Notes under the pieces: model-generated
What the model saw: only the letters and a program-made list of their open reading frames with translations
What the model was told of the DNA's origin: nothing
Database searches by the model: none
Shown: positions 15,961 to 36,044 of the stretch, one piece after another
Numbering within the stretch: the stretch's first letter is position 1
How the letters are laid out: each line of letters opens with the position of its first letter
Assembly (NCBI RefSeq): GCF_006384975.1
Contig: NZ_CP021645.1
Span: 1,392,001 to 1,456,000 of the forward strand
DNA: 64,000 bases
Direction of reading: 5' to 3'
DNA from: Pseudomonas oryzihabitans
GTDB taxonomy: Bacteria > Pseudomonadota > Gammaproteobacteria > Pseudomonadales > Pseudomonadaceae
Program-made: the position numbers and the translations under genes

Positions 15961-17058
15961 ATGAGTATTAAGCCTGAATATTTTGAAAAATTGCGTGAAA
16001 TGCTTATTTCAGGCGCTATCACCGCAATCACCTTTGATACGCAGGCATTTGATAGGAACGGCAGAACTTTCAGAGCAGGGCTCTTAGCACAGCTGGGACA
16101 GATAAAAAACTCCAGCATTAAGCTGATTGTCACTGAATTGGTTCGTGACGAGGCAGAAAAGCATATGCTTGAAATGCACAGTGCAAGGCATAAGAAAGTT
16201 GATGACGCATTTGCGCTTGTAGCCCAATATTTGAGCGACGACTTAGTTGACGAGGTGCGCGAAGAGCTCCAAGCAAGGGCCACCCCAGCGCAAATAGTCT
16301 TTCATGAAATAAATGATTTTTTCCTCGCGACGAATGCTGAGCTGGCATTCTACGACGAAATATCCACCAGAAATCTTTTTAAACTTTATTTTAATAATAA
16401 GCCCCCTTTCCACAGAAACAACGATAAAAAACATGAATTCCCTGATACTGTAGCGCTTCTAAGCCTAGAAGCACATGCAGAGAATGGCGGTATTCTAGTC
16501 GTTTCCTCAGACAAGGACTGGATTGAATTCTGCAACAGCTCTGAAAATAAAAGACTTCATTGCATACCGGACCTGACAACTGCACTCTCACTAATCAATT
16601 CAATAGAAGCTAATGTTAGGGAAATCACCAACCAACGCTTTTTACAGCTTCAGAGATTCAATGATTGCGGAGGTCTCAAGGCAGCAATTAGTGATAACCT
16701 GACCGAAAAGCTAGAACGCGACCTGCTTTTTACTGCCAGGACCAAACATCTTTATAACGCTCGCTGTTCAAGCATAAAGGTTGACTCTGTTATCCAGAGA
16801 GAAAATAAAATATTCGGAAAAATCCGAGATGACTCGAGCAGGACGATTTGGGCGCTTGAGCTAGATGCTGCATGCAACATTACTGTAGATGTTGATTTTT
16901 TTTGTGAAAATAGAAACTATATTGGCTCCAACAGCTATCATCACACTCTATCAATACCCACCATCTCAATCATTAAGTTAACAAGAGAATGCATTGATGT
17001 AGAAGTCAGCTTTGACATCAAAACAATATTGGACTTAGGGCCCATCGAGCCAAAATAG
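15961..17058 (+). CDS. PIN-domain protein (putative ribonuclease)
   Basis: A 365-residue protein; about residues 20-210 look like a PIN nuclease domain. The acidic residues are in order: ITFDTQAFD, the ELVRDEAEKH helix, EFPDTVALLSLEAHA, and VVSSDKDWIEF, matching the D-E-D-D metal site. The C-terminal 150 residues are unassigned. PIN proteins cleave RNA in toxin-antitoxin and other defence contexts. No small antitoxin gene is next to it; a longer gene follows on the same strand after 142 bases. Composition is AT-rich against GC-rich neighbours, so recent transfer is likely. Target and role are unknown. Confidence 0.72.
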   Translation: MSIKPEYFEKLREMLISGAITAITFDTQAFDRNGRTFRAGLLAQLGQIKNSSIKLIVTELVRDEAEKHMLEMHSARHKKVDDAFALVAQYLSDDLVDEVREELQARATPAQIVFHEINDFFLATNAELAFYDEISTRNLFKLYFNNKPPFHRNNDKKHEFPDTVALLSLEAHAENGGILVVSSDKDWIEFCNSSENKRLHCIPDLTTALSLINSIEANVREITNQRFLQLQRFNDCGGLKAAISDNLTEKLERDLLFTARTKHLYNARCSSIKVDSVIQRENKIFGKIRDDSSRTIWALELDAACNITVDVDFFCENRNYIGSNSYHHTLSIPTISIIKLTRECIDVEVSFDIKTILDLGPIEPK

Positions 17059-17200
17059 TTGACCCAGAGTGCGACAGAGAGCCAATAATTATACTGCCTA
17101 ACGAGAGCTGCTTTTTGCCGATACCCTTCAGGCAGATTGTGACTAGCTGACATTAGCTGCTTTACCATAAGGGTGATCTTACTACGGAGATATAATTTTC

Positions 17201-18433
17201 ATGCAAAATAATATAGCAAAAAGCTCCAAAAAGCCAAGAACCACAAAGAAGAACAGAACAAACGATTCATGCATAGACCACCTTCAAACTAAATGGCGAA
17301 ATATTTTAACTAAAAGATTCATCTATTTTTTTAATAAATCCCCCGAGTCCGCCCAGCGCATGGAGCTGATCATAAACTGCATGGTAAAAGGTCTAGAATC
17401 TCTATTCTTAAGGTTTTCGGACTTAAAGGATACTCAGTTCAACACGCAAGTCATGCTGTCTGATGTTGATGTATATTCCCAGCGGATGGCAGAGATGTTG
17501 TTTTACTACCAGCTTTTAGGAATGGGCTTCAGCGACATTAGAAGCAAGGATGCTGGACCAGATTTTGTCGCCAAGAAAAATGATGAAATATTCTGTTTTG
17601 AGGTGACAACACCTACCCCGAAAGATGCTATCAGAGAGCTTATTGGGCAGGCCAAGTTAGCACCCAAAGAGCGAGACTTAGTTTTTCGCGAGCGTTTGCT
17701 GTCGGTTACGTCTGCTATCAAAGGAAAACTGGAAAGTTTTGAAAATCATAAATCGGCAGGGCACGTCCCAAAGGGCGCCCATTACATAATCGTTATCAAT
17801 GATTCACTGCTGCTACCATATGACCAGCCTTGGTATGGGGTGCTGGCTGAGCTTTGCTTTGGTGACAGTACCCTGCCGATTACCGTAGATGCTACGCTTG
17901 GCTCTGGGAGTATCGATTTCGCTGATATTCTCGCTGAAGCACCTTCAGAAAGTGATGGCGACGAGTTTAAAAGCCTTGTAATGAAGAGCAATTTCGGAAT
18001 TTCTATCAATGGAGGGGAGCCGATCACTCCAGAGGACTCTTTGTTGCGTATAAAAATCAGAAAGAAAATACCCACCAGAAATAACACCGACACCGTCTTG
18101 GTAGATATAGTTGAATCTATGGGTGTAGCTGGGATTTATCAAATAACACTACGAGAGGACCTATTTTTTTACCACTCCTTTAAGTCTAGCAAGAGCGTAA
18201 AACCCGCTTCCGCATTGATCAGCTCGGTAAAAAACAAACAGCTGGTCAGAAATTCAATACATTTCAAATCAGCATATTCTAAAGATGAAAATCTCGTGCA
18301 GCCCCCCATGCCACCTGCGCGCATGCTTGACCGCGAACCACACGACTTTAATAACCAAGTTGCCTATGATATGTTCTTTAAACCCTACGTAGAGGGTGGT
18401 GAGCTCTATAAATCGCCTGAAACCCGAAATTAG
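17201..18433 (+). CDS. unknown protein with a PD-(D/E)xK-like nuclease motif
   Basis: A 410-residue protein with a lysine-rich N-terminus (about 1-25). Around residues 119-137 it reads GPDFVAKKNDEIFCFEVTTP: Gly-Pro-Asp121, a spacer, then Glu134-x-Thr on a beta strand. That is the D...ExT/K layout of restriction-endonuclease-like folds, although the usual lysine is Thr136. Later parts (HYIIVINDSLL, then a C-terminal half) are not recognised. It follows the PIN gene in the same AT-rich block and probably belongs with it functionally. I do not assign a function; a nuclease is the best guess. Confidence 0.6.
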   Translation: MQNNIAKSSKKPRTTKKNRTNDSCIDHLQTKWRNILTKRFIYFFNKSPESAQRMELIINCMVKGLESLFLRFSDLKDTQFNTQVMLSDVDVYSQRMAEMLFYYQLLGMGFSDIRSKDAGPDFVAKKNDEIFCFEVTTPTPKDAIRELIGQAKLAPKERDLVFRERLLSVTSAIKGKLESFENHKSAGHVPKGAHYIIVINDSLLLPYDQPWYGVLAELCFGDSTLPITVDATLGSGSIDFADILAEAPSESDGDEFKSLVMKSNFGISINGGEPITPEDSLLRIKIRKKIPTRNNTDTVLVDIVESMGVAGIYQITLREDLFFYHSFKSSKSVKPASALISSVKNKQLVRNSIHFKSAYSKDENLVQPPMPPARMLDREPHDFNNQVAYDMFFKPYVEGGELYKSPETRN

Positions 18434-23677: not shown

Positions 23678-24622
23678 ATGCGCCGATTGAATTTCCACCA
23701 TCTGCACTACTTCTGGGCCGTCGCCAAGGAAGGCAACCTGACCCGTGCCGCCGAGGCGCTGCATGTCTCCCAATCCGCCCTCTCCACCCAGATCCGCGTG
23801 CTGGAAGACCAACTCGGCCATGCCCTCTTCATCCGCTCCAGTCGCAGCCTAAAGCTGACCGAAGCCGGGCAACTGGTGCTGGATTACGCCGACACCATCT
23901 TCGCGCTCGGCAGCGAGCTGCAGACCACCCTGCAGCACACCGGCCAGGCCAGCCAGACGCTGCGCATCGGCGCCGTCGCGACCCTCTCGCGTAACTTCCA
24001 GGAGAACCTGCTGCGCCCCTTCCTCGGGCGAGACGACCTGGTGATCACCCTGGAGTCCGGCGGCGTGGATGAACTGCTGGAACGCCTGGCCCTGCACAAG
24101 CTGGACGTGGTGCTGACCAACAAAGCCGTCAGCGCCGACAGCCAGCGCACCTGGCAATGCCGCCTGCTCGCGCGCCAGGCAGTGTGCCTGATCGGCCCAC
24201 CGCGCCAGGACAGCCGCCCCTTCGACCTGCGGCGGGACCTGCAACAGGCCCGGCTGATCGTGCCGGGGCGCAGCAGCGACGTGCGCAGCCAGTTCGAGGT
24301 CTATTGCACCGGCCACGGGCTGCATCCACTGATCTGCGCCGAGGTCGACGACATGGCCATGTTGCGCCTGCTGGCGCGGGACTCCGGCGACATGGCCCTG
24401 CTGCCGGCCGTGGTGGTGCAGGACGAGTTGCGCAGCGGGGCGCTGCAGCTGTACGCCGAGGTGCCCGAGATCGCCGAGCAATTCTATGCGGTGACCCTGC
24501 AACGGCAATTCCGGCTGAAGATCCTGGACGAGCTGCTTGGCCAGCCGCCCGCGCAGGTGGAATCGGACAACGCCGTCCCCGGCACCGCCATTGCAGCGGA
24601 GCCAGGGGGCTCGGCGCCTTAG
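23678..24622 (+). CDS. LysR-family regulator next to dabBA
   Basis: A 314-residue LysR protein. The N-terminal helix-turn-helix (FHHLHYFWAVAKEGNLTRAAEALHVSQSALS region, residues about 4-35) is followed by a periplasmic-binding-like effector domain. It resembles the NhaR side of the family. It is divergent from dabB with about 100 bp between them, the usual LysR arrangement, so control of dabBA is likely. The ATG at 23678 fits the family N-terminus MRRLNFHHLHYF. Its stop overlaps that of the convergent autotransporter gene. Confidence 0.87.
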   Translation: MRRLNFHHLHYFWAVAKEGNLTRAAEALHVSQSALSTQIRVLEDQLGHALFIRSSRSLKLTEAGQLVLDYADTIFALGSELQTTLQHTGQASQTLRIGAVATLSRNFQENLLRPFLGRDDLVITLESGGVDELLERLALHKLDVVLTNKAVSADSQRTWQCRLLARQAVCLIGPPRQDSRPFDLRRDLQQARLIVPGRSSDVRSQFEVYCTGHGLHPLICAEVDDMAMLRLLARDSGDMALLPAVVVQDELRSGALQLYAEVPEIAEQFYAVTLQRQFRLKILDELLGQPPAQVESDNAVPGTAIAAEPGGSAP

Positions 24623-27600
24623 AAGCGCCAGCTCAGCTTGGCGTTGAGATCCTGATCCTTGCTGCGACCGCTCAGTTGGCCGTCGTAGCCCAGGCCCAGC
24701 GACACCGTCTCGGTCAGCGCCATGTCCAGCGCGCCCTGCACCACCGCCGCTTCGCGCGCGATGGGCGCACCCACCACGGTGAAGTTCGGGCCACCGGCGA
24801 AGGCGGCTTCGTGCTCGGGGGTGGTGTCGCCGAAGGCATGGCGCCAGCCCAGAGTGGCACTCGGCACCACCTTCCAATCACCCAGCGGCTTGCTCGCCAG
24901 ACGCAGGCCCAGGGTGCTAAAGGTCACGTCGGTGTTCTGCCGCGGATTGTCCAGCGCCAGGGCACCGCTGCGCTCGTGGAAGCCATCGGTCTGCAGGTGC
25001 ACATGGGCCAGGTTGGCGAAGGGTTCCAGGTTCAGGCTGCCCGCGTCGATCCGGTAGGCCAGTTCGCCGAAGGCCTGGGTGGTACCGGCGTCATACTCCG
25101 GCGCCAGGTGCTGGTTGCTGCCGAGGATCGTGAGATCGCGGCGCGCCTCCACCGAGTGCCAGGTGTGGGCCAGGCCGAGCTTGAGGCTCAGCGCATCCCA
25201 CTGGTTGCCGGCGTAGAGACCCAGGTGGTAGTCGGTGCTGGTGGCCGAGCCCGACTCGTCGCGCAGGTCGAGATCGGTATGGCCGAAGCCGATCAGGCCA
25301 CCGGCGCGCCAGCCGTTGTCCAGGGGAATGTCACCGCCGATCAGCAAGCCATGGCTGTGGCTGTCCAGGCTACTGGCGTCGTGGCTGCCGTCGTTACGAC
25401 CCCAGGCGCCGAGGGCCTGGGTCCAGACCAGGCCGCGCTCGGGGCTGCCGGCCAGGCCCTGGATACCGGAGCTGGACGGCGCATCGTCCTGGGCCTCGTG
25501 CAGGCGCTCGGCCATGGCGTTGCGGACCAGGCGGCTGTCTTCCACGAACACCGTCTTGGTGGTGGCATGCAGTTCGTTGCCCAGGCTCTGGAAGGTCGAG
25601 CGAGCGCTGGCGGCATTGGTCGCGGCCACCTGATTCCACAGGGCATTGCCGGCACCGGCCGCATCCAGGCCAGCCGCGGCAGCGCGAGCGTTGCGGCCAT
25701 TGGCCAGGTCGGCGAAGGCCACGCCGTTGCGCGGCAGGCTCAGGGTCGCCTGGTTGGCGCTGTAGCTCAGGGTCGGGGTGAGGAAGGCGAAGTCGGACTG
25801 GATCTGTCCGAAGCTGCCGCTCAGGCCATTGCCGGCGCTGAGCAATTGATAGCTGCCCAGCGCCTGCCAGTAGGGGCTGGAGACCAGTGCCAGGGTGGCG
25901 CCGTTGACCGCGATGCTGCCGTTGGCGACCAGGCGGTCGGCGCGGCCGGTGGCATCGGTTTCGACCTGATAGATCGAGCCCTGGTCGAGGGTCACGTCGC
26001 CATTGACGTTGAGCTGGCCCACCGAGTTACCCGGCGCCAGGATACCGCCCTGGGCCACGCTCAGGCTGGCCAGGCTGCCGTTGCCGCCGAGGGTGGCACC
26101 GGAATTGACCGTCACCGCCGAATTGCCGAGGTTGCCGTTGATGGCCAGGCGGCCCTGGTTGACGGTGGTGGTACCGGAGAAATCGCTGTTGCCGGTCAGG
26201 CTCAGGGAGCCGACGCCGGTCTTCACCAGGCTGCCATTACCGTGCAGGTTGTTGGCCAGGCTGTCGTTGACCGACTGATCCAGCACTAGGGTGGCGTTGT
26301 CGGTGATGTCACCGCTGCCGAAGGCCTGGGCATAGCCGCGCAGGGTACCGCCATTGATCACCGTGCCACCGCTGTAGGTGTTGAATCCGGTGAGGGTGAG
26401 TTCGCCGCTGCCGTCCTTGGTCAAGCTGCCGCTGCCACCGATGTTGTTGCGCCAGGCGTCGCTGGCATTGAAGCCACCCTGGCTGGCATCCATGTTGACC
26501 TCGACGTTGCCGTTGAAGGCGCCGTAGCCGTCGGCGGCCGCCATGAGATTGAGGCGGCCGTAGCCGTTGGATTCGTCGATGACCACATAGCCGGAAGACA
26601 GCTCGGTGCTGGCCAGGATGTCGCGGCGCTGGCTGGCGCTGAGGTAGGGGAAGCGCGTTTCCAGCAGCACCTCGGCGTTGGTCGGTACCACCGGCGCCAG
26701 GTTGGTCGGGCCGACGGGCGCGAAGCCGTAGGTCATGCGGTAGGTGTACAGCGCCTTGTCCTGGGCATGCTGCGACTGCTGGTCGGTGGCCGGATCGACC
26801 TTGGCCACGCAGTTGTTGATGTCGCCGCCGCACACCTGGGCGAAGTAGGCCTGGGCCTGGGTGAAGGCGTCGCTGCGCAACTGGGCGTTGTTGACCAGGT
26901 TATCGATGGCGAAATAGGTAGCGGTGATGCGCCCGCCGATCACGTCCAGCGGCGAATGCATGCCGGCGACGATGCGGTTGTTACCCAGTTCGGAGGCGCG
27001 GAACAGCTCTTCGCTCAAGCGCTGGGGCACGGCGTAGCCGAAACCCATGGCGGCCAGGTAGGCGGCGTTGGTGTGGCCGCTGGGGAAGCCGCCATCGGTC
27101 TGAGGTGTGGTACTGAGCGCCGGACGCAGCGACAAGGGCACGATATCCACGCCGGCCTGCCGCCAGGGGCGCGGATATTGATAGGCGTTCTTCGCCGGGG
27201 TGGTGGAGGCATCGTTGCGGATCGCCTGGACCAGTTGCACCACCTTGCCCAGTTGCGAATTGGCGTCGCCGGCACCGTTGCCGTTGTCGCTGTACTTGGT
27301 GGTCTGGGTGGAGGCGTCGAACACCGGGATGGTGGTGAAGGCCCCGGAGCCGGCCAGGTAGGCATTGGCCAGAGAGCCCAGGCCACTGATCAGGCTGTAG
27401 CTCTGGTCGCGGCGGTCATCGTAGTAGGCCGCAATTTCCTGGGCCTGGGTGCGGGTCTTCGAGAGGTCGACCACGTACTGGATATTGCGCTGCAGTATAG
27501 GTGCGCCCAGGGCGGTGGGGGTCCCGGTATTCCAGGTGGCCCCCGGCGTCCAGAGCTTGTTATAGCCAGACAACAGGTCGACGCCATTGATGGCGTTGTT

Positions 27601-27693
27601 GCCCGAACGACTGGCGGCCTGCACCGAAAGCGCCAGCAACGAGGCCGTGAACACAGCCGTCATCACTACGGGTTTATTACCTGAACGTTTCAC
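24619..27693 (-). CDS. autotransporter with a PAP2 acid-phosphatase passenger
   Basis: A 1024-residue type V secreted protein. A Sec signal peptide ends near residue 26. Residues about 60-290 are a PAP2 phosphatase with the active-site motifs intact: RP at 175-176 in QYPRPWR, PSGH at 204-207, and His246/Asp250 in GMHSPLDV. Residues about 415-600 are glycine-rich beta-helix repeats (GELTLTGFNTYSGGT type). About 740-1024 form a beta-barrel ending LSWRF with a terminal Phe. It would display a phosphatase on the cell surface. The start is GTG with AAGGAG upstream. The in vivo substrate is unknown. Confidence 0.9.
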   Translation of the reverse strand: MKRSGNKPVVMTAVFTASLLALSVQAASRSGNNAINGVDLLSGYNKLWTPGATWNTGTPTALGAPILQRNIQYVVDLSKTRTQAQEIAAYYDDRRDQSYSLISGLGSLANAYLAGSGAFTTIPVFDASTQTTKYSDNGNGAGDANSQLGKVVQLVQAIRNDASTTPAKNAYQYPRPWRQAGVDIVPLSLRPALSTTPQTDGGFPSGHTNAAYLAAMGFGYAVPQRLSEELFRASELGNNRIVAGMHSPLDVIGGRITATYFAIDNLVNNAQLRSDAFTQAQAYFAQVCGGDINNCVAKVDPATDQQSQHAQDKALYTYRMTYGFAPVGPTNLAPVVPTNAEVLLETRFPYLSASQRRDILASTELSSGYVVIDESNGYGRLNLMAAADGYGAFNGNVEVNMDASQGGFNASDAWRNNIGGSGSLTKDGSGELTLTGFNTYSGGTVINGGTLRGYAQAFGSGDITDNATLVLDQSVNDSLANNLHGNGSLVKTGVGSLSLTGNSDFSGTTTVNQGRLAINGNLGNSAVTVNSGATLGGNGSLASLSVAQGGILAPGNSVGQLNVNGDVTLDQGSIYQVETDATGRADRLVANGSIAVNGATLALVSSPYWQALGSYQLLSAGNGLSGSFGQIQSDFAFLTPTLSYSANQATLSLPRNGVAFADLANGRNARAAAAGLDAAGAGNALWNQVAATNAASARSTFQSLGNELHATTKTVFVEDSRLVRNAMAERLHEAQDDAPSSSGIQGLAGSPERGLVWTQALGAWGRNDGSHDASSLDSHSHGLLIGGDIPLDNGWRAGGLIGFGHTDLDLRDESGSATSTDYHLGLYAGNQWDALSLKLGLAHTWHSVEARRDLTILGSNQHLAPEYDAGTTQAFGELAYRIDAGSLNLEPFANLAHVHLQTDGFHERSGALALDNPRQNTDVTFSTLGLRLASKPLGDWKVVPSATLGWRHAFGDTTPEHEAAFAGGPNFTVVGAPIAREAAVVQGALDMALTETVSLGLGYDGQLSGRSKDQDLNAKLSWRF

Positions 27694-27996
27694 CAGCTCT
27701 TCTCCTTGGCGTCATGGATACAACCTGTTACAGGTTGTCGTGAGGCGGCGAGGCTAGAGTGGTTGTATGACGATATGGAGGCAGTCTGATGGCAATTTTT
27801 GTTTACTGGGCAACAGCTTACGTACGCAACCCGTTTTCCCTTCCCGCGTGCGTCAAAAAAGCGTGCAGAACCTTCCGTGGACGCGACCGAAGCGACTTGG
27901 CTGAGCGAGGTACACTCCCACCTTGAGTCGCCTGCCCTGCCAAAGATTCGCGCCATCGCGATCAAGAGGCCGCCCTACCCCAGCGGAGTTCAGACA

Positions 27997-28410
27997 TTGA
28001 CGACCACCCTCCACATCGCGGCAGCCGTGCTGCTGAACGAGCAACAGCAACTGCTACTGGTGCGCAAACGCGGCACCTCGGCCTTCATGCAGCCGGGAGG
28101 GAAGATCGATCCTGGTGAGCAGCCTCTGGATGCCCTGATCCGAGAGCTGCATGAAGAGCTTGGTCTTGTCATCGATCCGGGAGACGCCACCTTTCTTGGT
28201 AACTACCAGGCTCCAGCGGCCAATGAGCCTGGATTCATGGTTGATTGCGCGCTGTATTGGATCGAGCTGAAGCCGGGAGACCAGGCGATTACGGCGGCAG
28301 AAATCGAAGAGGCGCAGTGGGTTTCGATAGCAGGGGCGTGCGAGCTAGAGCTGGCTCCGCTGACGCGGGAGCTGGTGTTGCCGCTGGTGAAGTGTTTACA
28401 TTCTAACTAG
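27997..28410 (+). CDS. NUDIX hydrolase
   Basis: A 137-residue NUDIX protein. The box is complete: GGKIDPGEQPLDALIRELHEELGL, here shown only by its ends, fits G-x5-E-x7-RE-x2-EE-x-G. Such enzymes cleave nucleoside diphosphates linked to another moiety; the substrate cannot be read from sequence. The TTG at 27997 is preferred: CGGAG sits 8 bases upstream and the protein then begins directly with the TTTLHIAAAVLL strand. The frame stays open to 27799 but the extra residues look non-coding. Confidence 0.8.
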   Translation: MTTTLHIAAAVLLNEQQQLLLVRKRGTSAFMQPGGKIDPGEQPLDALIRELHEELGLVIDPGDATFLGNYQAPAANEPGFMVDCALYWIELKPGDQAITAAEIEEAQWVSIAGACELELAPLTRELVLPLVKCLHSN

Positions 28411-28520
28411 ACTTGCTATTTTCCAAGCTTTCTGCAAGGAAAGATCACATGGCCGCAGAAAAGGTTTGACATCGCATTGAACGAGACCTATCACTCTGCG
28501 AACGACAAAAGGAGCTTGAC

Positions 28521-29852
28521 GTGTCGCTTTCCGTAGACAGCAAAATAATTAAGAAAATAAATTCGCTACACAACACAGACAAAGAATACTGGTCATTTTC
28601 TCGCAGGTCGAAGCGAACCCATTGCCATGGATTCATTAAGTATCCCGCAATGATGGTTCCTGAAATGCAAGGCGAACTGATAGATATTTTTCTAAATCAC
28701 CAATCCAAAATAAAGTCCATCTTCGACCCGTTTGTTGGCTCAGGAACAACAATGGGCGAAGCCATGATGAGGGGGCTAAACTTCCAAGGAGTAGACATTA
28801 ACCCCTTAGCTATTCTCGCCTGCGAAACAAAGTCAGACGCCTTTTATATTTCCTCGCTCAAGCATAAAATCCTGGAACTCAACAACCGCTTACAGAAGGA
28901 CACTCTAGACTCTATAGAAGTTAACTTTCCAAAAATAGAAAAGTGGTTTATACCTCGAGTCCAGATTGAGCTGAGCAAAATTAGACGCGCCATAATGGCT
29001 GAACCTAGCAAATGGGCCAGAAGATTCTTCTGGGTTGCATTCAGCGACACCGTGAGAGGATGCTGCAACTCTCGCAGCTCCACCTACAAACTTCACATGA
29101 AACCTCAAGATGAGATAGACGAAGTAGGGTCTTGCCTTGAGATTTTTAAAAATAAAATTCAATTCAACTTTGAACTCAAGAAAGAACAGATGGATCTCTT
29201 GGCAGAACAAGGCCTGCTATCGGGCTCCACTCTTCTAAGCAACATCAATCTTTCCATATCAGACATCCAGGCGCTACCCAAGAAAAGCGAGCACAATCTA
29301 CATGACATGCTGATTACCTCTCCACCATATGGTGACAATTCTACCACCGTACCTTATGGGCAATTTTCTTATCTTCCTCTGATGTGGATCGACACAGCCG
29401 ACTTGCGAAATAAAGTCCCAAGCAAATTATTATCGAATGCCTCTGCAATTGACAGAGCCAGCCTTGGCGGATCGCACGCTAAGAAAGTTGAAGGCATAGA
29501 CCAACTAAGATGCATGTCACAAAGCTTTTCAACAAGTCTAGATCAGTTACTTAAGTACGAAAACAGTGGCCCAGTACGTCTATCTTCCTTTATCAAGGAT
29601 CTGAATAACTCACTAGACAATATGCTTTTTAGGATAAAACCCAAAGGCTATCTTATTTGGACACTAGGAAACAGGCACATTTCTGGACAAAAAATCCCAT
29701 TAAATAATATTTTAAGGGAACTATTAGAGGCTCGTGGCTGTGAATTTTTAATAGAAATAGACCGCAATATACCCCATAAAAGAATGGCGAACAGAAACAG
29801 CCGATCTCAAACCATGACCGAAGAACAAGTCCTGATAATGAAAAAGGGCTAA
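28521..29852 (+). CDS. DNA methyltransferase with SPPY motif (probable N4-cytosine type)
   Basis: A 443-residue methyltransferase. Motif I is DPFVGSGTT (from Asp69), binding S-adenosylmethionine, and the catalytic motif IV is SPPY at residues 267-270, typical of N4-cytosine enzymes (N6-adenine usually has DPPY or NPPY). The order I before IV fits the beta-like groups; about 180 residues between them probably hold target recognition. A GTG start follows AAAGGAG. The gene is AT-rich. The next gene, 54 bases on, encodes a GHKL ATPase, so this may be the modification half of a defence system. No classical restriction nuclease gene is adjacent. Confidence 0.82.
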   Translation: MSLSVDSKIIKKINSLHNTDKEYWSFSRRSKRTHCHGFIKYPAMMVPEMQGELIDIFLNHQSKIKSIFDPFVGSGTTMGEAMMRGLNFQGVDINPLAILACETKSDAFYISSLKHKILELNNRLQKDTLDSIEVNFPKIEKWFIPRVQIELSKIRRAIMAEPSKWARRFFWVAFSDTVRGCCNSRSSTYKLHMKPQDEIDEVGSCLEIFKNKIQFNFELKKEQMDLLAEQGLLSGSTLLSNINLSISDIQALPKKSEHNLHDMLITSPPYGDNSTTVPYGQFSYLPLMWIDTADLRNKVPSKLLSNASAIDRASLGGSHAKKVEGIDQLRCMSQSFSTSLDQLLKYENSGPVRLSSFIKDLNNSLDNMLFRIKPKGYLIWTLGNRHISGQKIPLNNILRELLEARGCEFLIEIDRNIPHKRMANRNSRSQTMTEEQVLIMKKG

Positions 29853-29906
29853 CTTCAACCATAGAACATTCAAACCTATAAGTCTATTCGCGGAAAGGAA
29901 TCTCAT

Positions 29907-31991
29907 ATGCCAGAGGCATCTTTGAAGTTTGGCGGAAAGATAATAGAAGAACTGTCACAAAAAATCCCATCCTCCTTATTCGCCCTAAATGAATTAATAA
30001 AAAATGCTTATGATGCTTTTTCTCCTTACATAAAAATAAAAATTGAGCCCTCCCAAAATACAATAACCATCTCAGACAACGGAAATGGAATGGGCATAGC
30101 GGAAATAGAAAATCTATTTCACATATCACAAAGTTCTAAAAATTATGGTGAAATTATTGAACAAGACGGAATCCAGAGAATAACTCAAGGATCCAAAGGA
30201 TTAGGCTTTCTAGCCGCATTCAAATTTGGCCACAAAGTAGAATGGACGACTTCAAAAAATGGCATTGAAAGTAAATTCTCTCTTGAGAAGTCCGCTCTAG
30301 TCTCCAAAACAGACCTCACAGGAACAGCCATACCAATAACAACAAATCCCAGCAAACAAAAAGGGACAACAATCGTTATCTATTCAAGCCAGAAGTATCT
30401 TGAAGAGCTACAAGCTGACCTAGAGGATGAAAGAGTCTCAGAAAAGCTCGCTGCTGCAATCGAAGACAACGCATTTAATATAGAAATATACATAGAAAAT
30501 ACATTAATTTCCTCAACTCAAAAAATCAAGGACTTCCGTCAGGAGAGAGAAAACGATCAGCTTTTTTATGTAAAGTACAATTCAGAGGAAAATATTTTAC
30601 ACTTCTACCATCGGGGGGAGCTCTTGGACCCCGTTTCCGGATTAGAACTCCCCATCAACCCTAAAGACTACCAAATAGACTTAGAGCTAATAATATTTAG
30701 CTTAGGCAAAGGAAAAAAAGAGAGATCCATATCCAAACTTAATAGAAGAACACATGACAAAGCACTGTATCCCTTAGTTTATGTCAATCGCAATCTATTT
30801 AACAATACAGCCATATTTGACCCAGACATTCTTAGAAAATCCAAATTAAGCCATTCACTCCCTCAAATTATTGGGCGAGTAAAAATAACAAGCCAGAGCA
30901 AGGAGCTAGAATTCAATTCAGATAGAACTAATTTTGTAGAAAACTCATTAACAAAAGGACTAATGAAAAATCTAAGGAAACTCAATGAGCGCATTCAGAC
31001 TACTGGTTCTGAGCTAAAAAAAGAACTGCAGGCACAGACACCAAAAAATGAGATCCCCACAGGCAAAGCTGCTCCAATCTCAAAGCCAGAGACCTCCCAA
31101 AAAAGGACAGCGCATGTACTGATTGATAGAAGCATGCCCTTTGAAATCAATATACCATCGAGCCAACTGGACTTGGCTAACTATATTTTCCTAGTAAAGA
31201 ACAGCCTTGGCGAAGAAGTTAATAAACATGAAGTCATCATCCTAATTGACAGTGAGCCTTCAAACGATGGCATATTGCAGTCAATAGAGGAACCTTGCGA
31301 AAAGATAATTCTTTTCAGGTACTGCGACCCACATACAAAAGTAGCTTCCACCGAAATCACATTAAAATTCATCAAAAAGACATCCAGCATTACTGGGGCG
31401 CCCCTAAACAAATCTCTCTTTACAATTGAGTCAGAAACAGGATACCGCATTAGCCATAATACAATTTCGAGCCTAATAAATGGCATAGACACAGCCTATC
31501 AATCACGAAACAAAGAAAATTATCTTCCGCTCATAGCTTGTTCCATGAGGTGTATACTCGAAATCTCTTCGAAAAAGACATTTCAAAGAAAGAATCGGCT
31601 CTTTGCAAAGATAAACACAAAAACATTGAATCAAAGGCTACAAAGCGAGCTAAAATCCGACTTGATGCTCGAAGTCATGTACATATTGATTTTATTAAAG
31701 AAAAATCAAAATCTCTTAAGGGTAATATCCGAAGCCAGCGGAATCAGCTTTAAAATATTTAACAACCTTCTAGATTTAGAGGCATTTGGTAGCGCAGTTA
31801 AGCTATCTAACGTAGGAGCTCACTCTTCGTCTGGCTACCTATCCAAACCCAAAATCGAAGAGTGCGCAAACAAATGCGGGCTGTTTGCAGTTATATGCGA
31901 CATTCTGATAAATTTAGATAGCAAAACAGAAAGCTCCCTAGCGATAATAAAACTAGACGAGACTGATTTTTCATCTTATCTTGGACAATAA
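29907..31991 (+). CDS. GHKL-type ATPase protein paired with the methyltransferase (MORC/MutL-like)
   Basis: A 694-residue protein starting with a GHKL ATPase fold. The N-box is NELIKNAYDAF (Glu29, Asn33), the G1 box DNGNGMG (Asp57), and the G2 box GSKGLGFLAAF (from Gly95). The catalytic glutamate and Mg-binding asparagine are kept, so ATP binding is expected. An S5-like region probably follows (to about 340). About 500-694 is a helical domain ending near NVGAHSSSGYLSK, not recognised. GHKL/MORC ATPases linked to restriction-modification genes are described (Iyer, Abhiman and Aravind). Function here is inferred from pairing and composition. No nuclease motif was recognised. Confidence 0.7.
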   Translation: MPEASLKFGGKIIEELSQKIPSSLFALNELIKNAYDAFSPYIKIKIEPSQNTITISDNGNGMGIAEIENLFHISQSSKNYGEIIEQDGIQRITQGSKGLGFLAAFKFGHKVEWTTSKNGIESKFSLEKSALVSKTDLTGTAIPITTNPSKQKGTTIVIYSSQKYLEELQADLEDERVSEKLAAAIEDNAFNIEIYIENTLISSTQKIKDFRQERENDQLFYVKYNSEENILHFYHRGELLDPVSGLELPINPKDYQIDLELIIFSLGKGKKERSISKLNRRTHDKALYPLVYVNRNLFNNTAIFDPDILRKSKLSHSLPQIIGRVKITSQSKELEFNSDRTNFVENSLTKGLMKNLRKLNERIQTTGSELKKELQAQTPKNEIPTGKAAPISKPETSQKRTAHVLIDRSMPFEINIPSSQLDLANYIFLVKNSLGEEVNKHEVIILIDSEPSNDGILQSIEEPCEKIILFRYCDPHTKVASTEITLKFIKKTSSITGAPLNKSLFTIESETGYRISHNTISSLINGIDTAYQSRNKENYLPLIACSMRCILEISSKKTFQRKNRLFAKINTKTLNQRLQSELKSDLMLEVMYILILLKKNQNLLRVISEASGISFKIFNNLLDLEAFGSAVKLSNVGAHSSSGYLSKPKIEECANKCGLFAVICDILINLDSKTESSLAIIKLDETDFSSYLGQ

Positions 31992-31998
31992 TTATATA

Positions 31999-32024
31999 TA
32001 TGGGCTATAGATTTTTAGCCCATA
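31999..32024 (+). terminator. hairpin terminator after the GHKL gene
   Basis: TATGGGCTA (31999-32007) pairs over nine bases with TAGCCCATA (32016-32024), loop of eight, just 8 bases past the stop. A modest T-containing tail (TTACCTTT) follows. Confidence 0.55.
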
Positions 32025-32372
32025 TTACCTTTCCAAACTCAACACTCTTTACTGCAGCGCAAAAACCTATGCACAACGAACGAATTTACACCCTGATCAC
32101 ATTAGAAATCCAGCCTCCTTCAATAGATTCCTGAATTATTAAATTCGAAAATATGCTATAATAATAAGTAAATGGAGATTTCTTGCAGCCTTTTGAATAC
32201 TCAATCAATATAATGCCTTTATTCTCACTGTTCAATTCAATCTAAACAAACAATGGAGGCAATCTTTCTTTGCAACGCTAATAACCACCCGGCACCCCAG
32301 GCGTACCATACCCGCCCTCCCCCCGCTACAATACCCGCCCTGCTGTGCCCCACCTGATCGAGAAGAACCGCC
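32025..32372. other. AT-rich spacer at the right edge of the acquired block
   Basis: About 350 bases. The first 240 are AT-rich and hold a TATAAT box (32157-32162). GGAG at 32174-32177 precedes a 20-codon open frame starting TTG at 32183 and ending TAA at 32243-32245, which may be a truncated gene start. Around 32280 the composition returns to core GC; TACAAT (32327-32332) is a plausible -10 for rlhA. Confidence 0.4.
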
Positions 32373-34388
32373 ATGTCCCTGCCCAAGCACCATCTGGAAT
32401 TGCTCAGCCCTGCCCGCGATGTCGGGATCGCGCGGGAGGCCATCCTGCATGGGGCGGATGCCGTCTACATTGGTGGGCCGAGCTTTGGCGCGCGGCACAA
32501 TGCCTGTAACGAGGTGAGCGAGATCGCCGAGTTGGTGACCTTCGCCCGGCGCTACCATGCGCGGGTATTCACCACCATCAACACCATCCTGCATGACGAC
32601 GAGCTGGAGCCGGCGCGCAAGCTGATCCATCAGCTCTACGACGCGGGGGTGGATGCGCTGATCGTGCAGGACATGGGCGTGCTGGAGCTGGATATTCCGC
32701 CGATCGAGTTGCACGCCAGTACCCAGACCGACATCCGCACTCTGGGCCGGGCCAAGTTTCTCGACCAGGCCGGCTTTTCCCAGCTGGTGCTGGCCCGCGA
32801 GCTGAACCTCAAGGAAATCGCGGCCATCGCCGCCGAGACCGAGGCGGCCATTGAATTCTTCATCCATGGCGCCCTGTGCGTGGCCTTCTCCGGCCAGTGC
32901 AACATCTCCCATGCCCAGACCGGCCGCAGCGCCAACCGCGGTGACTGCTCCCAGGCGTGCCGCCTGCCCTACACCCTCAAGGACGAAAAAGGCGGGGTGA
33001 TCGCCTACGAAAAGCACCTGCTGTCGATGAAGGACAACAACCAGAGCGCCAACCTGCGCGCCCTGGTCGAGGCCGGGGTGCGCTCCTTCAAGATCGAGGG
33101 GCGCTACAAGGATGTGGGCTACGTGAAGAACATCACCGCCTACTATCGCCAGTTGCTCGACGAGATCCTCGAAGACCGCAGCGACCTGGCGCGCGCCTCC
33201 AGCGGGCGCACCGCGCACTTCTTCGTGCCCGATCCGGACAAGACCTTCCACCGCGGCAGCACCGACTATTTCGTCACCGAGCGCAAGGTGGACATCGGCG
33301 CCTTCGATTCGCCGACCTTTACCGGCCTGCTGGTCGGCCAGGTGGAGAAGGTCAACAAGCGCGACCTGATCGCCGTGACCCAGGAGCCGCTGTCCAATGG
33401 CGACGGCCTTAACGTGCTGGTCAAGCGCGAGGTGGTGGGCTTCCGCGCCAACGTCGCCGAATTGAAAGGTGAATTCGAAGAGGACGGCGAGAAGCGCTAC
33501 CGCTATCGCGTCGAGCCCAACGAGATGCCCGAGGGGCTGTTCCGCCTGCGGCCGAACCATCCGCTGTCGCGCAACCTGGACCACAACTGGCAGCAGGCGC
33601 TGCTCAAGACCAGCGCCGAACGCCGCATCGGCGTGCGCTGGAGGGCCGAGCTGCGTGAAGAGCGTCTGCGCCTGACCGCCACCAGCGAGGAAGGCGTGAG
33701 TGTCGAGGTGGCCCTGGCTGGCCCCTTCGGTGTGGCCAACAAGCCGGAACAGGCGCTGGAGGGTCTGCGCGATCTGCTGACGCAGCTGGGCACCACCGAG
33801 TACCACGCCCTGGACGTGGCCCTGGACGCACCCCAGGCCTTCTTCGTGCCCAATTCGCAACTCAAGGCACTGCGCCGCGAGGCCATCGAGCAACTGACCG
33901 CCGCCCGCATCGCCGCCCATCCGCGTGGCAGCCGCAAGGCCGAGACCAGCCCGCCGCCGGTCTATCCCGAGGCGCACCTCTCGTTCCTCTACAACGTCTA
34001 CAACCAGAAGGCCCGTGACTTCTACCATCGCCACGGCGTGCAACTGATCGACGCCGCCTACGAGGCCCACGAAGAGCCCGGCGAGGTGCCGGTGATGATC
34101 ACCAAGCACTGTCTGCGCTTCTCCTTCAACCTCTGCCCCAAGCAGGCCAAGGGCGTTACCGGCGTACGCACCAAGGTCGCGCCCATGCAGTTGGTCCATG
34201 GCGACGAGGTGCTGACCCTGAAGTTCGACTGCAAACCCTGCGAGATGCATGTGGTCGGCAAGATGAAGGGCCATATCCTCGACCTGCCACTACCGGGCAG
34301 CCAGGCCGCCGCCAAGGCGGTCGCCAGCATCAGTCCGGAAGACCTGCTCAAGACCATTCGCAACAAGCCGACGGGTTACAGTCACTAA
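32373..34388 (+). CDS. rlhA: 23S rRNA 5-hydroxycytidine C2501 synthase, U32 peptidase family
   Basis: A 671-residue YdcP/RlhA-type protein, close to the E. coli length. RlhA is needed for hydroxylation of C2501 in 23S rRNA. The N-terminal U32 domain reads LELLSPARDVGIAREAILHGADAVYIGG and the cysteine-containing core SGQCNISHAQTGRSANRGDCSQ; the C-terminal cysteines are in KHCLRFSFNLCPKQ and FDCKPCEM, likely iron-sulfur ligands as in related U32 proteins. It stands alone. Other U32 members (TrhP) differ in length and C-terminal part. Confidence 0.88.
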   Translation: MSLPKHHLELLSPARDVGIAREAILHGADAVYIGGPSFGARHNACNEVSEIAELVTFARRYHARVFTTINTILHDDELEPARKLIHQLYDAGVDALIVQDMGVLELDIPPIELHASTQTDIRTLGRAKFLDQAGFSQLVLARELNLKEIAAIAAETEAAIEFFIHGALCVAFSGQCNISHAQTGRSANRGDCSQACRLPYTLKDEKGGVIAYEKHLLSMKDNNQSANLRALVEAGVRSFKIEGRYKDVGYVKNITAYYRQLLDEILEDRSDLARASSGRTAHFFVPDPDKTFHRGSTDYFVTERKVDIGAFDSPTFTGLLVGQVEKVNKRDLIAVTQEPLSNGDGLNVLVKREVVGFRANVAELKGEFEEDGEKRYRYRVEPNEMPEGLFRLRPNHPLSRNLDHNWQQALLKTSAERRIGVRWRAELREERLRLTATSEEGVSVEVALAGPFGVANKPEQALEGLRDLLTQLGTTEYHALDVALDAPQAFFVPNSQLKALRREAIEQLTAARIAAHPRGSRKAETSPPPVYPEAHLSFLYNVYNQKARDFYHRHGVQLIDAAYEAHEEPGEVPVMITKHCLRFSFNLCPKQAKGVTGVRTKVAPMQLVHGDEVLTLKFDCKPCEMHVVGKMKGHILDLPLPGSQAAAKAVASISPEDLLKTIRNKPTGYSH

Positions 34389-34449
34389 GCCGGTGACGGG
34401 CTTGCCAGTGCACTTGGCGCGGTTCCCGTTCGAGCCTGACCGGTAAGCG

Positions 34450-35646
34450 CTACAGCTGGCCTGTCGAATGCCTGCCCCTCAGGCCAGGGCGGGCCAACCA
34501 CCACAGCGGTCCCTGCGCCAACAGCGCCAGAGCCACGCCCACCCAGGGCGTCAGCGCCAGTTGGCCATGCGCGACCAGGCTGCTGCCCAGGGTTTCACCC
34601 AGGGTGATGCCGAGATTGAACGCCGCGATGTTCAATGCCGAGGCGAAATCGAGGGCGTGTGGCGTCCAGCGTTGCGCCGTTTCCAGCATTCCGGCCTGGA
34701 AGCCGGGGGATAGTCCGAACGCCAACCCACCCCAGACGAACAACAGGGGCACCATGACGCTCTTCCACGGCAAGGCCAGCGCCATGGCCAGCAACACCAG
34801 CAGCAATCCGAACAACAGGAGCCGCAAGGCCGTCGGCCAGCCCAGCCGTGCGGCCCAGCGGCCGCCGAGGAGATTGCCCACCAGGGTGGCGATGCCGAAC
34901 ACCACCAGCAGTCCACTGGCCATCTGACTCGAAAAGCCGGTGATCTCCGTCAGAATGGGGGTGATGAAGGTAAAGCTGGCGAAACTGGCGCCAAAGCCGA
35001 GCACGGTGACTGACATCATGGCCAGGATCGCCGGACTGGCCAAGGCCGCGATCTGGCGCTTTGCCGGCCCCGTCGCCTCGGCGGGCAACGACGGAATCCA
35101 CCGCGTGATGGCGAGCAAGGCCAAGCCGGCCAGCCCCACCACGGCAAAGAGCGGCAACCGCCATCCCAGGGCGTTGCCGATCAGGCTGCCCAAGGGTACG
35201 CCGAGCACCATCGCCAGGGTCAGGCCCGCGAACATCGATGCGATGGCGCGGCTGGCCTGACCGTCCGGTGCCAGACGTGCCGCGACGGTGGCGCCGATAG
35301 CGAAGAAGCTGCCATGCGCTACGGCGGTCACCAGGCGTCCGGCCAGTAATAGCTCATAGCTGCCGGCAAGCGCCGATAGCAGGTTGCCCGCCAGGAAGAT
35401 GGCCACCAGTACCAGCAGCAGCGGCTTGCGCGGCAGGCGGGCGAGCGCCAGTACGGTGAGGGGCGTGCCCACCGCCAAGGCCAGGGCGTAAAACCCGACC
35501 AGCCCACCCGCCTGGGCGAGGGGCACCGCGAGATCCTCGGCAATGGCCGGCAGCACGCCCACTACGATGAATTCCGCCACGCCGATGGCGAAGGCGGTGA
35601 TCGCCAGAGCCCAGATGCCCGGGTGAGTTCGCTGGACGCCACTCAT
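34450..35646 (-). CDS. MFS transporter, drug:H+ antiporter-like (DHA1)
   Basis: A 398-residue, 12-helix permease. The N-terminus IWALAITAFAIGVAEFIVVGVLPAIAEDL is shown by its first and last parts typical of the YdeA/AraJ/PbuE group of efflux carriers. The ATG at 35646 overlaps the upstream gene's stop (ATGA), so it is coupled to the HbpS-like gene and probably to the IclR gene further up. The substrate is unknown; sugars, purines or small metabolites are exported by relatives. Confidence 0.84.
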   Translation of the reverse strand: MSGVQRTHPGIWALAITAFAIGVAEFIVVGVLPAIAEDLAVPLAQAGGLVGFYALALAVGTPLTVLALARLPRKPLLLVLVAIFLAGNLLSALAGSYELLLAGRLVTAVAHGSFFAIGATVAARLAPDGQASRAIASMFAGLTLAMVLGVPLGSLIGNALGWRLPLFAVVGLAGLALLAITRWIPSLPAEATGPAKRQIAALASPAILAMMSVTVLGFGASFASFTFITPILTEITGFSSQMASGLLVVFGIATLVGNLLGGRWAARLGWPTALRLLLFGLLLVLLAMALALPWKSVMVPLLFVWGGLAFGLSPGFQAGMLETAQRWTPHALDFASALNIAAFNLGITLGETLGSSLVAHGQLALTPWVGVALALLAQGPLWWLARPGLRGRHSTGQL

Positions 35647-36044
35647 GGGCGGCCTGCCGCCGTCAGGGCTATGGCTTGGTCGGCAGCCAGGGTGGCGCCA
35701 GCGACGCCCAGGCCGCCGATAACCCTGCCATCGGGGTCGTACAATACCACGCCGCCTCCGAAACCGATCAGACCACCATTGGAGGCCTCCAGGGTGTAGA
35801 GGGCGCCACCCGGCTGGGCGGCGACACCGATCTCGCCGCTGTCGGTCCGGAACAGCGCGGCCATCCGCGCCTTCTTGAGGGACACGTCGATGGCCCCGGG
35901 GACGGCGTCCTGCATGCGCAGGAAGCCGCTCAGCAGACCTGCGGCATCCACCACGCTGATACAGATCGAGAAACCTTGCTCGCGGGCCAGTGCCTGGGCG
36001 CGGTCGATGATTTGCTGGGTAAGGACATCGGTCAAAGGAGGCAT
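35643..36044 (-). CDS. GlcG/HbpS-family small protein
   Basis: A 133-residue protein of the GlcG/HbpS family (Haem_degrading/DUF336 fold). Typical stretches are LAREQGFSICISVVDAAG, the LKKARMAALFR helix, and the glycine-rich FGGGVVLYDPDGRVIGGLGV. Members bind haem or cobalamin or sit in glycolate, aromatic and other catabolic operons; their role is mostly undefined. The ATG at 36044 has GGAG nine bases upstream. It overlaps the MFS gene and lies 83 bp downstream of the IclR gene on the same strand. Confidence 0.82.
   Translation of the reverse strand: MPPLTDVLTQQIIDRAQALAREQGFSICISVVDAAGLLSGFLRMQDAVPGAIDVSLKKARMAALFRTDSGEIGVAAQPGGALYTLEASNGGLIGFGGGVVLYDPDGRVIGGLGVAGATLAADQAIALTAAGRP

Follow-up and report, generated by a model that had tools for sequence, protein, structure and literature searches.

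A conserved methyltransferase-GHKL ATPase gene pair of Pseudomonas oryzihabitans, a likely defence system with a putative PD-lambda-5_A-type effector

The 64,000-nucleotide stretch of Pseudomonas oryzihabitans DNA analysed here (the window; contig NZ_CP021645.1, positions 1,392,001 to 1,456,000 of the forward strand) harbours two neighbouring genes, which encode an SPPY-type amino-methyltransferase and a GHKL ATPase extended at its C-terminus by an Ig-like and a helical domain. The two genes form a conserved unit, beyond chance proximity, and a role in defence is likely. They probably constitute a two-gene, methylation-guarded anti-phage system, in which a GHKL/Ig-like sensor would gate a helical effector of the PD-lambda-5_A type. 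The data detailed below directly support the existence and conservation of the pair, the integrity of the ATP site, the kinship of the tail with PD-lambda-5_A and the variability of the genomic site. The pair and its domains are organized as follows:

28521..29852, forward strand: SPPY-type amino-methyltransferase gene (GTG start, 443 amino acids; FVGSG as motif I at residues 71-75 and SPPY as motif IV at residues 267-270)
29853..29906, forward strand: intergenic gap of 54 bp, probable operon
29907..31991, forward strand: GHKL ATPase gene (ATG start, 694 amino acids)
29907..30506, forward strand: GHKL ATP-binding domain, residues ~1-200 (Pfam HATPase_c_3, 3e-18; Foldseek)
30507..30941, forward strand: S5-type transducer region, residues ~201-345, proposed from position and secondary structure after the GHKL-S5 layout of PMC2292703
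31104..31382, forward strand: Ig-like beta-sandwich, residues ~400-492, the most divergent domain between two sister species (64.6% amino acid identity)
31392..31988, forward strand: helical C-terminal domain, residues ~496-694, a relative of the PD-lambda-5_A C-terminus and the proposed effector
31548..31550, forward strand: codon of R548, invariant (93/93), in the Rx3[ED] motif
31821..31823, forward strand: codon of H639, invariant (93/93), in the [HN]x3H motif

The original prediction, made from the DNA letters, of a methyltransferase and a GHKL ATPase gene lying 54 bp apart in an AT-rich block agrees with the coordinates, the strand and the guanine-cytosine (GC) content. In 1-kb bins, the pair block (29001-32000) displays GC values of 0.41, 0.364 and 0.386, against 0.616-0.690 in the three bins of 25001-28000 and 0.645-0.693 in the three bins of 33001-36000, with intermediate values in the bins that separate the block from its flanks. 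Likewise, the claim that no classical restriction nuclease occurs nearby is borne out by the profile scans, which revealed no such domain in the two proteins of the pair (Pfam, PADLOC and NCBIfam) or in three neighbours (Pfam).

Loci harbouring homologues were fetched by the alignment of the ATPase alone, the best 80 from genome_contigs and the best 80 from viral_contigs, and the 19 best-ranked ones (L003-L015, 13 loci from genome_contigs, and L098-L103, 6 loci from viral_contigs) are referred to as near loci. Using the window methyltransferase as a tblastn query, a homologue was found in all 19 near loci (E <= 1.3e-43), and in 17 of them, including the broken locus L007 and the cut loci L005 and L015, the methyltransferase gene is the direct same-strand neighbour of the ATPase gene, in either order. 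It comes first in 7 and second in 12 of the 19 loci, and other genes intervene between the pair in L003 and L098. The neighbourhood check proposed along with the original prediction thus came out in favour of the pair. A methyltransferase profile built from the near loci, L007 being also omitted, gives 19/19 by construction, and the tblastn count is independent of it. In the distant set, consisting of the other 141 loci with remoter GHKL matches (among them L104, with an N-terminal match only on a contig that ends there), the methyltransferase family occurs in only 17 loci. The pairwise distances of the methyltransferases and the ATPases are correlated over 18 pairs (r = 0.56, as high in 0 of 10000 permutations, species kinship being uncorrected).

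In these 17 distant loci, the Ig-like and helical profiles find no match in the GHKL proteins (E 0.01), and 16 of these proteins appear, by sequence reading, to end in a further ATPase of histidine-kinase-like type, the 17th being cut short. Since the methyltransferase family also occurs upstream of such two-ATPase proteins, it may represent a general partner of GHKL proteins; it lies directly upstream of a differing GHKL protein in L053, L063, L071, L116, L134, L151, L155, L161, L176 and others. In Colwellia maritima (L003, 5660-9524), three extra genes are inserted between the pair, the first of which (719 amino acids) ends with a HATPase_c domain. In Leclercia adecarboxylata (L007, 8632-11875), both genes are fragmented, as expected of a decaying defence locus. 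Six of the ten neighbouring proteins scanned elsewhere matched restriction, defence-like or TniQ models. The restriction models are those of type I (L006), type IIG (L009) and a type II fusion of methyltransferase and restriction enzyme (L004); the others are DdmD-like (L012), MADS-like (L010) and TniQ (L005).

The methyltransferase corresponds to the SPPY type originally proposed: besides the SPPY motif, it matches the N6_N4_Mtase family of Pfam (5.9e-9) and the type II methyltransferase model PDLC03360 of PADLOC (2.4e-131, residues 6-442). This full-length profile match, together with motifs I and IV, places the protein among the type II-like DNA methyltransferases. Residues G73, S74, G75 and S267-Y270 are invariant in the 19 members of the family. 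The nearest solved structure, that of a tRNA methyltransferase, is not a close one (E 0.0032, residues 42-110 only).

The homologues of the ATPase were selected from the best 120 of 494 proteins. Of these, 110 consist of 630-730 amino acids; 88 of the 110 were kept after thinning at 85% identity, and 77 of the 88 were aligned, 11 being omitted by hand. The set of 93 sequences used throughout comprises these 77 proteins, the window protein being one of them, and 16 loci; L005, L007 and L015, with their truncated or fragmented genes, were omitted from the ATPase alignments. The N, G1 and G2 boxes had been described as intact, and the residues of the ATP site (E29, N33, D36, D57, G59, G61, G95, G98, G100, G153 and T154) are indeed invariant in all 93 sequences. 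An AlphaFold2 model built from the 77-sequence alignment (mean predicted local distance difference test score, pLDDT, 87.8; predicted template modelling score, pTM, 0.57) matches Hsp90/TRAP1, MORC3 and GyrB in Foldseek searches, with E ~1e-12.

The assignment to MORC in the strict sense did not hold. The GhXhhpXXRhl motif of the MORC S5 domain (PMC2292703) occurs in 0/93 sequences, either within residues 191-370 or anywhere else, so that the ATPase is best regarded as paraMORC-type instead of MORC. The ATP motifs (93/93), the layout of the model and the methyltransferase partner (19/19) fit the broad definition of the paraMORCs, the S5 region being recognised by position only. The domains that distinguish the subfamilies paraMORC1-5 (restriction endonuclease (RE) fold, TIR, HxH and others) gave no Pfam match, and the [HN]x3H motif differs from HxH. 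That GHKL ATPases are linked to restriction-modification was, as the original prediction had mentioned, already described: paraMORC proteins have been reported from restriction-modification neighbourhoods (PMC2292703).

The C-terminal half of the ATPase (residues 346-694) contains five residues that are invariant in the 93 sequences: N360, Q364, D474, R548 and H639. In addition, column 635 is occupied by H or N in 92/93 sequences, and a K or R occurs seven residues before H639 in 59/93. The C-terminus had been described as an unassigned helical domain; the helical part is real, yet it can now be placed beside PD-lambda-5_A, and it is preceded by an Ig-like domain. The structure prediction suggested for this region was run and the Ig-like domain was matched, whereas the helical fold was barely probed by the searches: the fold lists obtained with the C-terminal model are filled by the Ig-like domain, the other parts being barely tested, and no HEPN entry occurs among the fold-search rows listed, dominated as they are by that domain. 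The Ymh family (PF09509) was considered and rejected, since none of 17 C-termini matched it at E <= 1 and the profile-profile comparison gave P 0.092. The members of DUF4145 taken as a possible HEPN comparison were too few for a profile, and their motif was viewed only. When the C-terminal profile was run against a large set of proteins, it retrieved 11, of which seven were known pieces of the family (411-487 amino acids) and four were new and short (166-374 amino acids), so that no other architecture of the domain emerged.

The relationship to PD-lambda-5_A was revealed by profile searches. Among the 17 C-termini, 14 match PDLC04001 and 7 match PDLC03996, both PD-Lambda-5_A models of PADLOC (E <= 0.01), the best value being 4.2e-20; the window protein matches PDLC04001 at 3.4e-5 when the entire protein is the query and at 4.9e-6 with its C-terminus alone. 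A profile-profile comparison of the helical domain with PD-lambda-5_A gave P 2.2e-6, against 0.092 and 0.65 for the Ymh and methyltransferase controls. Judged from these profiles, the helical C-terminus of the ATPase is related to that of PD-lambda-5_A, and the characteristic C-terminal helical domain of the latter is thus present in the window protein.

Homologues of PDLC04001 were identified in 5/229 class genomes (1e-10) and those of PDLC03996 in 2/349 phylum genomes. The five former proteins were found mainly via the N-terminal part of the model (best stretches at positions 7-226), and the comparison rests on these homologues from other genomes rather than on the E. coli proteins themselves. 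In all five loci the adjoining gene encodes a DPPY-type protein of 285-302 amino acids, and the two of these five that were scanned with Pfam are both D12-class adenine methyltransferases; the profile of the window methyltransferase has no match in the five loci at 1e-3. The Rx3[ED] motif is found in 5/5 and the [HN]x3H motif in 4/5 of the homologues, in which an EGNRR stretch is also invariant (5/5). The ParB-like label of their N-terminus corresponds to one weak Pfam match (E 0.085) among three proteins. Since these homologues combine a ParB-like N-terminus with a DPPY partner and the window a GHKL N-terminus with an SPPY partner, the same tail is associated with two unrelated N-termini and two unrelated methyltransferases.

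With respect to the genomic site, the pair is enclosed by the following features:

27853..28410, forward strand: NUDIX hydrolase gene, left neighbour (the stretch scanned; the listed open reading frame begins at 27799)
28396..32313, no strand: stretch replaced by other DNA in the same-genus genome G004, which is colinear through 28395 and again from 32314
32373..34388, forward strand: U32 peptidase-family gene, right neighbour and conserved flank

The ATPase and the methyltransferase occur at this same site in a second genome, G006. The U32 flank was found in 8/14 genomes searched, which made the site readable in six pair-free genomes of the genus. In G004 (L091), the site is occupied by a helicase that weakly resembles GajB (3.9e-6) and by a gene of 854 amino acids without assignment; in G003 (L094), by phosphoribosyltransferase-like, ORC/CDC6-like and CARF-type genes together with a methyltransferase-like piece; and in G009 (L097), by an Avs4 homologue separated from the U32 gene by a transporter gene. 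From these contents, three of the six pair-free genomes harbour defence-like genes at the site, one only weakly so. The site beside the U32 gene is a hotspot in the genus. The tRNA scan detected no tRNA gene in the window. Plasmid records matching the ATPase were not found at 1e-20, and a single phage record matches 16% of the protein.

The window genome (G000) and G006 differ in the divergence of their two genes. Their methyltransferases are 95.3% identical, with a synonymous divergence (dS) of 0.32, while the identity of the ATPases varies along the protein: 88.0% for residues 1-200, 77.2% for residues 201-345, 72.7% for residues 346-400, 64.6% for the Ig-like domain and 91.4% for the helical domain, with dS values of 0.54-1.74. 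The raised dS of the ATPase gene points to recombination and suggests that this gene alone was exchanged or recombined. A tail and an ATP site which are kept, while the middle of the protein changes, would suit a recognition role of the middle.

The reading that we favour combines this evidence with two general considerations, namely that GHKL proteins close as ATP-driven dimers and that methyltransferases located beside effectors usually mark self. Accordingly conceived, the methyltransferase would mark a short host sequence and the GHKL/S5 protein would act as an ATP-dependent clamp which, together with the Ig-like domain, would sense foreign or unmarked DNA, or another infection cue. Sensing would gate the C-terminal helical effector, presumed to be equivalent to the PD-lambda-5_A C-terminus, and its invariant Rx3[ED] ... 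[HN]x3H signature would most likely correspond to a HEPN-like nuclease site; once fired, the effector would restrict the phage or halt the cell. The sensing of the DNA state, the gating by ATP, the nucleolytic activity and the self-protection by the methyltransferase are thus steps that we infer. Should this proposal be true, one effector domain would be common to defence systems whose sensors and methyltransferases are unrelated, and the unexplained part of PD-lambda-5 would gain a common, testable active site, shared by proteins mostly annotated as 'ATP-binding protein' or 'hypothetical protein'. The pair would also offer a simple two-gene bacterial model of a MORC/Hsp90-type ATP clamp that reads the state of DNA and signals to an effector.

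Several observations weigh against this proposal. The pair is rare: the ATPase occurs in 2/144 genomes of relatives, the window's own and G006, and in 1/369 class genomes, the window's own included, neither protein of the pair being found in any other of the 369. At the hotspot, three of the six pair-free genomes (G002, G007 and G008) possess DNA of ordinary GC content. The contrast in dS between the methyltransferase and the ATPase genes of G000 and G006 indicates that the pair is not always one inherited block. In the 77-sequence alignment, the mean identity to the window protein is similar for the Ig-like (40.1%) and the helical (40.5%) domains, which, together with the raised dS, weakens a special recognition role of the middle. 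As for the effector, the canonical Rx4-6H motif of HEPN proteins ends at H639 in only 4/93 sequences, and the canonical motif was rejected. No Foldseek match of the C-terminal model was obtained in PDB or BFVD at E <= 0.001, no Pfam family convincingly covers the helical domain in 17 relatives, and the best solved structure matching the C-terminal profile in a sequence search reaches only E 0.038. Two of the four full-length relatives scanned (L100 and L102) have no PD-Lambda-5_A match at 1e-6. The PD-Lambda-5_B model appears neither among the best 25 of 37 PADLOC rows for the window methyltransferase nor among the rows for five of its relatives. Finally, the two homologues of PDLC03996 (L187 and L188) have no DPPY or SPPY gene within the 3.6 kb examined.

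A bolder version of the proposal, which we consider possible but doubtful, regards the pair as part restriction-modification, part abortive infection system. The GHKL clamp would sense unmethylated DNA and the Ig-like domain would switch on a nuclease of a new HEPN-like class, with the arginine R548 on a helix other than that of H639. Since the tail joins both a ParB-like protein with a D12 enzyme and a GHKL protein with an SPPY enzyme, it would be modular across sensors and methyltransferases, and would define a family of methylation-guarded suicide systems.

Of the explanations that depart from this framework, the one that survives best, although it seems unlikely, is a restriction-modification system of the ordinary type II-like sort. 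Here the DNA would be cut by the GHKL protein, as a restriction enzyme of the BbrUII/HgiDII type, and the helical domain would be an unusual DNase. PADLOC classes the methyltransferase as type II, the best NCBIfam match of the ATPase is the BbrUII/HgiDII restriction enzyme NF050001 (8.4e-17), and the GHKL domains of both proteins are homologous (profile P 2.1e-14). However, the match to NF050001 scores 60.9 bits where 550 bits are required, and covers residues 27-195 only, so that a full-length match is not reached and the GHKL domain is all that is in common. The BbrUII comparison involved a protein of G019, above the cut-off, and one relative below it, to which neither the Ig-like (P 0.75) nor the helical domain (P 0.55) is related, and the invariant residues within 346-694 do not include acids and a lysine in a PD-(D/E)xK-like arrangement.

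Less probable still is a methylation-dependent regulator, of the sort proposed for two-component-like paraMORC relatives of the HEF_HK type, in which the GHKL protein would read methylation and remodel DNA or control genes, without killing or cutting. GHKL proteins do include DNA clamps, and the 16 of 17 distant loci in which the same methyltransferase family accompanies a GHKL protein with a second kinase-like ATPase reproduce the layout of PMC8011034. The window ATPase, however, lacks the second ATPase and possesses instead a tail of the PD-lambda-5_A type, and both the sporadic occurrence of the pair and the genes found at the site better suit defence. Its identification as a HEF_HK two-component-like protein was also discarded, Pfam recognising HATPase only within residues 24-135 and no HEF_HK domain (E <= 1). 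A selfish addiction module, in which the methyltransferase protects, the pair persists by post-segregational killing (a known behaviour of restriction-modification pairs) and any effect on phages is a by-product, would agree with the patchy distribution but is the least credible explanation, given the chromosomal site common to the pair and to defence-like genes and the lack of a plasmid match to the ATPase at 1e-20.

Two other regions of the window deserve mention. A second AT-rich block (15961-18433, GC 0.42-0.48) encodes a 365-amino acid protein with a PIN_12 domain (1.6e-20), followed by a 410-amino acid protein devoid of any Pfam match at 0.01, and is possibly another small pair of the defence or toxin type. 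On the reverse strand, 24619-27693 encodes a protein of 1024 amino acids in which a PAP2 phosphatase domain is combined with PATR passenger repeats and with the beta-domain of an autotransporter.

Among known systems, those already published comprise GHKL ATPases encoded near restriction-modification genes (PMC2292703), fusions of GHKL with HEPN in such neighbourhoods (PMC3710099) and PD-lambda-5. Neither the connection of this GHKL family to the PD-lambda-5_A tail nor its constant association with this methyltransferase family was found in the literature searched, which comprised few subscription journals and no bioRxiv preprints. The pair shares with the paraMORCs of PMC2292703 an N-terminal GHKL domain followed by an S5-like region, intact ATP motifs, a C-terminal extension and methyltransferase neighbours, but differs from the described subfamilies in that neither a superfamily 2 (SF2) helicase partner nor a C-terminal domain of the RE-fold, TIR or HxH kind is recognised. 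It resembles the BbrUII/HgiDII enzymes (NF050001) by its GHKL N-terminus, the C-terminal domains being unrelated. With the HEF_HK / Response_reg_2 systems of PMC8011034, it has in common a GHKL protein encoded downstream of the methyltransferase, a layout that also occurs beside this methyltransferase family, but a second C-terminal ATPase occurs there in place of the Ig-like and helical domains. The paraMORC-Ymh(HEPN) fusions, proposed as analogous to PrrC and RloC in PMC3710099, likewise occur in restriction-modification neighbourhoods and join a GHKL domain to a helical C-terminus, but the helical domain of the window protein has no Ymh match. VcSduA, a GHKL-Shedu protein whose ATP-site and nuclease mutants lost defence (PMC12137116), similarly links a GHKL N-terminus to a C-terminal effector. 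This effector is a DUF4263 PD-(D/E)xK nuclease, and the accessible sections of that source mention no methyltransferase partner; an assignment to Shedu type I-D was rejected, the window ATPase having no Pfam match to DUF4263 at E <= 1. The closest parallel is PD-lambda-5, a system of E. coli which, when tested experimentally, acted on nine of ten phages and was considered by its finders as an apparently compacted prophage version of an RM+Abi (restriction-modification and abortive infection) system (PMC9519451). Both systems consist of a DNA methyltransferase and a protein with the same type of helical C-terminal domain. They differ at both other positions: the ParB-like N-terminus of the PD-Lambda-5_A homologues is replaced by a GHKL/S5 N-terminus in the window ATPase, and their DPPY-type (D12) neighbour by a methyltransferase of the SPPY type.

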